From NCBI GenBank assembly GCA_013298995.1, contig JAAFJW010000020.1, positions 1 to 33,579 on the forward strand: DNA of 33,579 bases. Reading direction: 5' to 3'. Shown piece after piece: positions 18,555-19,472 of the stretch; within the stretch, counting starts at the first letter, position 1; each line of letters begins with the position of its first letter. A program made the position numbers and the translations under genes. The notes under the pieces were generated by a model, which was not told the origin of the DNA, did no database searches, and was given only the letters and a program-made list of their open reading frames with translations. This stretch comes from Sphingobacteriales bacterium (GTDB taxonomy: Bacteria; Bacteroidota; Bacteroidia; Sphingobacteriales; Sphingobacteriaceae).

Positions 18555-18595
18555 TTTAAAGGAAGCCTTCGCTCAAAGCGAAGTCTTCCTTTAAA
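18555..18595 (+). repeat. RAYT-associated hairpin, copy 1 (upstream)
   Basis: TTTAAAGGAAG-C-CTTCGCT-CAA-AGCGAAG-T-CTTCCTTTAAA; 18 paired positions with one C/T mismatch. Confidence 0.95.
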
Positions 18596-18616
18596 TAAAT
18601 TTTAATAAAAAACCTA

Positions 18617-19273
18617 ATGAAAAACAATATAGAACCCCTACAACCTGATAGCTTTTACCATATTTACAACCGTGGTATCAATGGCGAAAATATTTTTAAA
18701 GAAGATAAAAATTATACCTACTTTCTTACAAAATATGCACATTATTTGAGCCCTTATGTTTCAACCTATGCTTACTGTTTGCTAAAAAATCATTTTCATT
18801 TACTAATTCGTACAAAATCTGTAGAAGAAATAAAATTGATAACAAATGACAACTTAGGTATAAATACTTCAAAAAATGGCGTAGTAAAAAGCGAAACGTA
18901 CAAAGATGTTTCTTGGGTACTTAGCAATGCTTTTGCAAGTTTTTTTAAAAGCTATGCGCAGTCTTTCAATAAAGTATATCATCGAACAGGGCGACTTTTT
19001 GAAGAACCATTTCGTAGAATATTGGTAGATAGCGATTCGTATTTTTCTGAGATTATTTACTACATTCATCATAATCCTCAAATACATGGATTTGTAAATG
19101 ATTTTAGGGATTATCCACATTCGTCTTATCATTCTCATCTACTAACGGCTGCTACCAAGTTGGAAAGAGCAGCCGTTATTGCTTGGTTTGGTAATAAAGT
19201 GGAGTATGAGAATTTTCATAACGCAGAATATTTTTTTAAAAATTTGAATAAATTTGAAATAGAGTTTGATTAG
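18617..19273 (+). mobile_element. REP-associated tyrosine transposase (RAYT / Y1_Tnp, IS200-like HUH nuclease)
   Basis: FYHIYNRGINGENIFKEDKNYTYFLTKYAHYLSPYVSTYAYCLLKNHFHLLIRT (HUH motif HFH), ...YHRTGRLFEEPFRRILVDSDSYFSEIIYYIHHNP; 218 aa. Confidence 0.92.
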
Positions 19274-19302
19274 GAAGCCTTCGCTCTAAGTGAAGTCTTC
19301 CT
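19272..19302 (+). repeat. RAYT-associated hairpin, copy 2 (overlaps the RAYT stop codon)
   Basis: AGGAAGCCTTCGCTCTAAGTGAAGTCTTCCT. Confidence 0.93.
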
Positions 19303-19314
19303 TTTAAGGGTTAT

Positions 19315-19345
19315 AGGAAGCCTTCGCTCTAAGCGAAGTCTTCCT
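19315..19345 (+). repeat. RAYT-associated hairpin, copy 3
   Basis: AGGAAGCCTTCGCTCTAAGCGAAGTCTTCCT; 43-bp period with copy 2. Confidence 0.95.
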
Positions 19346-19381
19346 TTTAAGACCCCCAAATAAGAAATAAAATATTTATTT

Positions 19382-19400
19382 AAAGGAAGCCTTCTTTTTA
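19382..19400 (+). repeat. Truncated RAYT-associated hairpin remnant
   Basis: AAAGGAAGCCTTCTTTTTA: left arm retained, loop and right arm deleted. Confidence 0.7.
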
Positions 19401-19441
19401 AACGCCAAATAAAAATTATAATAAAATTAAAATATAGTTAA

Positions 19442-19472
19442 AGGAAGACTTCGCTTAGAGCGAAGGCTTCCT
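19442..19472 (-). repeat. RAYT-associated hairpin, inverted copy
   Basis: AGGAAGACTTCGCTTAGAGCGAAGGCTTCCT, the exact reverse complement of copy 3. Confidence 0.95.

Follow-up and report, generated by a model that had tools for sequence, protein, structure and literature searches.

The RAYT (REP-associated tyrosine transposase) of Escherichia coli has been shown to be strand-specific and to cleave at CT next to the hairpin, with demonstrated roles for GTAG and for the bulge in mid-stem; among the studies consulted, hairpin recognition has been worked out only for RAYT groups 2 and 3 (PMC8266576). Subclass 2.6 of the TnpA-REP proteins, equivalent to Bertels group 5, is found mostly in Bacteroidetes, with the gene between atypical structures that lack GT[AG]G and have copies elsewhere (Quentin et al., 2018, PMC6006769). 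Its published motifs are NH[LIV]H, YIH[QN]NP and a serine pair in the tail, with a median HUH-Y distance of 82, and its hairpins are termed atypical and weaker in the main text (PMC6006769). The window, i.e., the whole stretch of 33,579 nt analyzed here (contig JAAFJW010000020.1 from a Sphingobacteriales bacterium), contains a unit that fits this published description: hairpins without GTAG flank the gene and have copies elsewhere, a serine pair (SSY) follows the Y motif and the HUH-Y distance is long. The fit is not complete, because the motifs NHFH and YIHHNP of the window protein are each one position off the published ones, and its HUH-Y distance is 88; the comparison with known RAYT groups that the preliminary description of the locus had called for agrees with subclass 2.6 in the serine pair and the hairpin traits, and in all but one position of each of these two motifs. 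Since a Bacteroidetes RAYT class with atypical hairpins was already reported (PMC6006769), the unit is not a new class, and from the earlier proposal of a separate Bacteroidota hairpin family we retain that the family is dispersed and genome-specific. In our reading, held with high confidence, the locus is a REPtron, composed of a vertically kept, single-copy RAYT (an HUH/Y1 single-stranded DNA nuclease of the subclass 2.6/group 5 type) and its cognate family of non-autonomous hairpins, with cleavage and mobility as predicted activities.

The RAYT/TnpA-REP gene (positions 18617–19273, + strand) codes for a product of 218 aa, with HUH residues H59 and H61 and the catalytic tyrosine Y149 within YIHHNP, and is bracketed by hairpins at the positions previously described. 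Copy 1 (18555–18595, + strand; 29-nt core at 18561–18589) is situated 5′ of the gene and its stem is lengthened by TTTAAA on both sides. Copy 2, including its 5′ TA tag, spans 19271–19301 (+ strand; core 19273–19301) and overlaps the RAYT stop codon, its first G being the G of TAG; the same overlap occurs in the congener G004. Copy 3 (19314–19347 with TA tag and TTT tail, + strand; core 19316–19344) lies 43 bp after copy 2, and both the start of copy 2 in the stop codon and this spacing are as first noted. They are followed by a truncated remnant, GGAAGCCTTC (about 19384–19394, + strand), and by an inverted copy (19440–19473, − strand; core 19443–19471) located 19 bp 5′ of the ATG of ligA, and in G004, too, ligA is preceded at this place by an inverted copy. 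Gene ligA (19491–21497, + strand), coding for an NAD-dependent DNA ligase, is a fixed neighbor outside the unit; the position of the inverted hairpin (region 19443–19490), close to the ligA start also in G004, may affect ligA expression. The four intact hairpins are 29 nt long (GGAAGCCTTCGCT-nnn-AGCGAAGTCTTCC), with 14-nt arms and an internal mismatch, which is C versus T in all four, as initially reported; copy 2 has additionally one G/T wobble. As a single strand the window hairpin folds as drawn, with energies from −11 to −15 kcal/mol and a z of about −5, and none of 200 shuffled sequences was equally stable. Elsewhere in the window, positions 28731–29597 contain a gene for a PD-(D/E)XK nuclease family transposase (PF12784), and positions 29671–31758 an ORF of 695 aa without any Pfam match at E values up to 0.1.

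The hallmark of RAYT/TnpA-REP proteins, an HUH motif plus a single catalytic tyrosine in a Y1 fold, is present in the window protein. It matched the NCBIfam model of REP-associated tyrosine transposases (NF047646) with an E value of 9.5e-11 and 41.8 bits, which is below the curated cut-off of 80 bits for this model, and the same model is matched by all 43 aligned homologs, across which H59, H61 and Y149 are invariant. Pfam gave no significant match for the protein, and a search of its own genome with the Pfam Y1_Tnp profile missed it, whereas NCBIfam, a PDB profile search and a fold comparison detected it. A profile of 14 homologs retrieved a single PDB entry, 4er8, in which the E. coli RAYT is bound to REP (E value 8.1e-10), and an AlphaFold model of the window RAYT (mean pLDDT 90.4) was also most similar to 4er8 (TM 0.67 on the target), followed by the TnpA proteins of ISDra2 and IS608. 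The best named homologs are from Cytophagales, Saprospiraceae and other Bacteroidota.

Its HUH/Y1 transposase fold is common with IS608 and ISDra2 TnpA and hairpins lie near both ends, as in the IS200/IS605 family, so the locus could be read as an active IS200/IS605-like insertion sequence whose gene and flanking hairpins move as a unit. We regard this as very improbable: the gene is present as a single copy per type, one per genome and with no identical copies, it occupies the same ligA-adjacent place in two species at a dS of 0.66, and the dispersed units are hairpins without a gene. The single copy and the conserved place beside ligA at that distance speak against a gene that moves as a unit; the protein is, besides, longer than those of IS200/IS605 and has a C-terminal tail. 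The RAYT is directly 5′ of ligA in both the genome of the window (G000) and G004, and was found upstream of ligA in none of the other 16 congeners, one of which (G015) has a contig ending 208 bp upstream of ligA. Between G000 and G004 the gene shows a dN of 0.085 against the dS of 0.66, a comparison of two species that points to purifying selection. Together, the one copy, the shared place and the dN well below dS fit the domestication proposed in the preliminary description.

Pattern searches of the 2.78-Mb G000 genome, allowing up to 3 mismatches, located the window hairpin in 26 places, as opposed to none for the reversed control; the family is therefore not a product of chance, and the copies expected elsewhere in the genome do exist. 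The dispersed copies show the anticipated intergenic bias, because, except for two that overlap ORFs of 86 aa, none of the places examined overlaps an ORF of at least 70 aa and all sit between larger ORFs. Many lie just past stop codons, most are not placed between divergently oriented genes, and they combine stable stems with frequent T runs after them, which would suit intrinsic terminators or stabilizers of mRNA ends among which the RAYT lies by chance. However, a copy with the same sequence precedes the RAYT start codon and ligA is preceded by an inverted one, the hairpin sequence occurs specifically in genomes that have a given RAYT, and terminators need neither a shared sequence nor tandem inverted pairs. 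This explanation is thus improbable, although a role of the hairpins as terminators can still be a by-product.

The C/T mismatch, whose conservation the preliminary description proposed to check, is retained in 18 of the 20 full-arm copies of G000, although this persistence argues only weakly for selection because transitions alone leave a pyrimidine pair unpaired. The same description held that the mismatch gives the palindrome its orientation, and here it has to be corrected: when copies are oriented by their flanks, the mismatch is T..C in 10 of them and C..T in 8, so that its side flips and the mismatch alone gives no polarity. Polarity follows instead the flanks and the loop, with TA 5′ of 18 copies, TTT 3′ of all 20 and a C-N-A loop in 18, the flank counts being somewhat inflated because these flanks were used to choose the orientation. 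The GT[AG]G found at the 5′ foot of canonical REP hairpins (subclasses 2.2, 2.4, 2.5, 2.7, and 2.8) is not conserved in these copies, and the base before the TA varies.

The C..T and T..C forms constitute two subtypes with different tails, TTTTTAGGTAAAATT and TTTAAATAA, which face each other head-to-head as inverted pairs in arrays on contigs C32, C170, C182, and C153, and all four intact copies of the RAYT locus are of the C..T form. One of the inverted pairs folds into a single long hairpin (z −7). The family thus includes REPIN/BIME-like inverted pairs as a repeated unit, answering the earlier question of a single or paired arrangement, and resembles in this respect the Pseudomonas REPINs (PMC3116915), whose inverted hairpin pairs are also able to fold into one long hairpin; unlike them, it involves another protein group and another hairpin, and its pairs occur only in a few tandem arrays. 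With the E. coli REPtron (group 2/subclass 2.2, 4er8) the unit shares the HUH/Y1 fold, hairpins in both orientations at the gene, unpaired bases in mid-stem, and subtypes paired in BIMEs; it differs from it in having a TA tag and no conserved GTAG, one mismatch where E. coli has a bulge of two bases, and about 26 copies, compared to about 600 in E. coli. The arrays on C32 and C153 are located after paralogous genes and are in part duplicates, so they are not independent insertions; both contigs open with these genes (L021:1-760 and L024:1-760), which are 92% identical over 762 nt and have a secretion-tail-like C-terminus, before the hairpin arrays. The arrays also hold an additional conserved spacer of ca. 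80 nt between inverted hairpins, a trait that would favor MITE-like elements moved by another transposase, with the RAYT as a chance neighbor. The recurrence of RAYTs with their own hairpins in dozens of genomes, and the divergence of both together, render this origin exceedingly improbable.

G000 contains a second intact RAYT (C68:6594-7223, L019; 48% identity), bracketed by a different hairpin, GACTTTCCAAGTTTnnnAAACTTGGAAAGTC, with 7 copies in the genome. Another dispersed palindrome of ca. 70 nt (GTCATTCTGAACGAAGTGAAGAATC...GACTCTTCACTTCGTTCAGAGTGACA) occurs at C144:16974-17043, C190:5464-5530 and many more places of G000 (L023, L034), as well as in many copies in G004 and G015, with no transposase linked to it.

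We then considered RAYT loci from the whole branch, 80 of them named and 17 from relatives, of which 86 were usable. A hairpin was present within 250 nt on either side of the gene in 60 of the 86 loci, and on both sides in 37, as compared to 5 (either side) and 0 (both) of 74 for flanks 1 kb away and none of 860 for shuffled flanks; the remaining 26 loci had no qualifying hairpin nearby. Downstream of the gene, the closest hairpin usually begins at most 20 nt from the stop codon; upstream, the end of the closest one is usually 7–54 nt ahead of the start codon. These results indicate that, across the branch, hairpins bracket RAYT genes in a tight geometry and far above controls. Records labeled as non-Bacteroidota also contained branch RAYTs with nested hairpins, namely L112 (Halobeggiatoa), L095 (Methylobacter) and L083 and L085 (Chloroflexi), reflecting either transfer or binning error; the Halobeggiatoa genome (G101:C195) has tandem hairpin arrays with a period of about 61 bp.

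Beyond what is stated for subclass 2.6, most hairpins of the branch have 15-bp stems and loops of 3–4 nt, and their 15-nt arms are themselves 6-3-6 palindromes, with the consensus ARMCCTnnnAGGKYT-nnn-ARMCCTnnnAGGKYT. Among the 57 loci with stems of at least 15 bp, the inner 15-nt arm formed on average 4.98 of 6 pairs, versus 1.61 for shuffled arms, with the caveat that related loci are not independent, and the palindrome was centered on position 8 in 52 of them. The window arm, GAAG-C-CTTC, is a degenerate nested palindrome with the mismatch at its center. We found no description of this nested design in the main texts of the papers searched. A conserved group-wide flank tag was sought in the Aquimarina family (23 copies), where nothing was conserved beyond a pyrimidine adjoining the stem. 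The generic nested pattern occurred in 11 of 19 genomes with a RAYT versus 13 of 81 without a detected close RAYT (P 0.0004), and is hence enriched with RAYTs but not exclusive to them.

Distances between proteins and between hairpins were correlated across the branch (Mantel r 0.32, reached in none of 2000 permutations), which indicates that hairpin and protein appear to diverge together. In a reciprocal test allowing 0–1 mismatch, each of two hairpin types was found only in its own 4 genomes, matching the RAYT type. Judging from these sequence comparisons, every type of RAYT is associated with a hairpin family of its own, with the probable relics of G015 as the exception.

Among 100 genomes searched, G000 included, the window hairpin was confined to G000, G004 and G015, which also contain the closest RAYTs (100, 84 and 62% identity, respectively). 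It is absent from relatives without a close RAYT, contrary to the refuting outcome named in the preliminary description, a hairpin equally common in related genomes that lack this RAYT. Within the genus, the hairpin was present in 3/3 genomes with the closest RAYT and 0/15 of the others (Fisher P 0.0012). A 17-nt core, CTTCGCTnnnAGCGAAG, has 26, 13, 12, and 1 copies in G000, G004, G015, and G016, and zero in eight further congeners. This core is shared by two hairpin families, GGAAG...CTTCC, flanked by TA and TTT and surrounding the RAYT of G000 and G004, and ACCGATG...CATCGGT, which surrounds the RAYT of G015. Nevertheless, G015 holds at least four GGAAG hairpins at 0–1 mismatch while its own RAYT is flanked by the CCGATG hairpin, so that either the cognate pairing is not absolute or these copies are relics. 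Gene ligA of G015 is closer to that of G000 (93% identity) than that of G004 (89%), yet its RAYT is only 62% identical; the G015 RAYT is therefore probably from a different lineage, and its GGAAG hairpins are probably relic copies. Conversely, on contig C122 of G004 (L061:290-800) a broken RAYT related to the intact one of G015 lies next to CCGATG hairpins and constitutes a decayed second unit, or decaying REPtron. Hairpin sites also vary among congeners: one before a conserved gene is common to G000 and G004, with the hairpin absent there in G016, and another one, with identical flanks, is common to G000 and G015.

Taking the E. coli enzyme as a model for the REPtron, the RAYT would bind the hairpin when its strand is single-stranded, during replication or transcription, would cut adjacent to the hairpin foot through Y149, and would rejoin it at another site; hairpins and their inverted pairs would in this way spread to intergenic positions, with the gene remaining next to ligA. 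To read polarity, the protein would probably rely on the TA tag at the 5′ side, the C-N-A loop and the two unpaired pyrimidines, which are candidates for the task that GTAG and the bulge perform in E. coli. A further idea, which we put forward tentatively and consider rather unlikely, is that RAYTs of this branch recognize the 15-nt 6-3-6 mini-palindrome making up each arm, rather than the hairpin of 33 nt. On this view, two mini-hairpins fused in inverted orientation would form the full hairpin, equivalent to a REPIN whose spacer has shrunk to 3 nt, and this structure could alternate between a single long hairpin and two short ones while it is cut and rejoined.

The bracket geometry, the nested 6-3-6 arms, the co-divergence of hairpin and protein, and the genome-specific hairpin types are new, and the group-wide hairpin rule sharpens a Bacteroidota RAYT class that was incompletely described. 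A single genus already displays two families of hairpins, a live RAYT alongside a decayed one, and both shared and missing hairpin sites. With a design rule (ARMCCTnnnAGGKYT, a loop of 3–4 nt, ARMCCTnnnAGGKYT), a hairpin-gene distance that is conserved, and matched RAYT-hairpin pairs by the dozen, co-divergence and the switching of specificity become directly testable.
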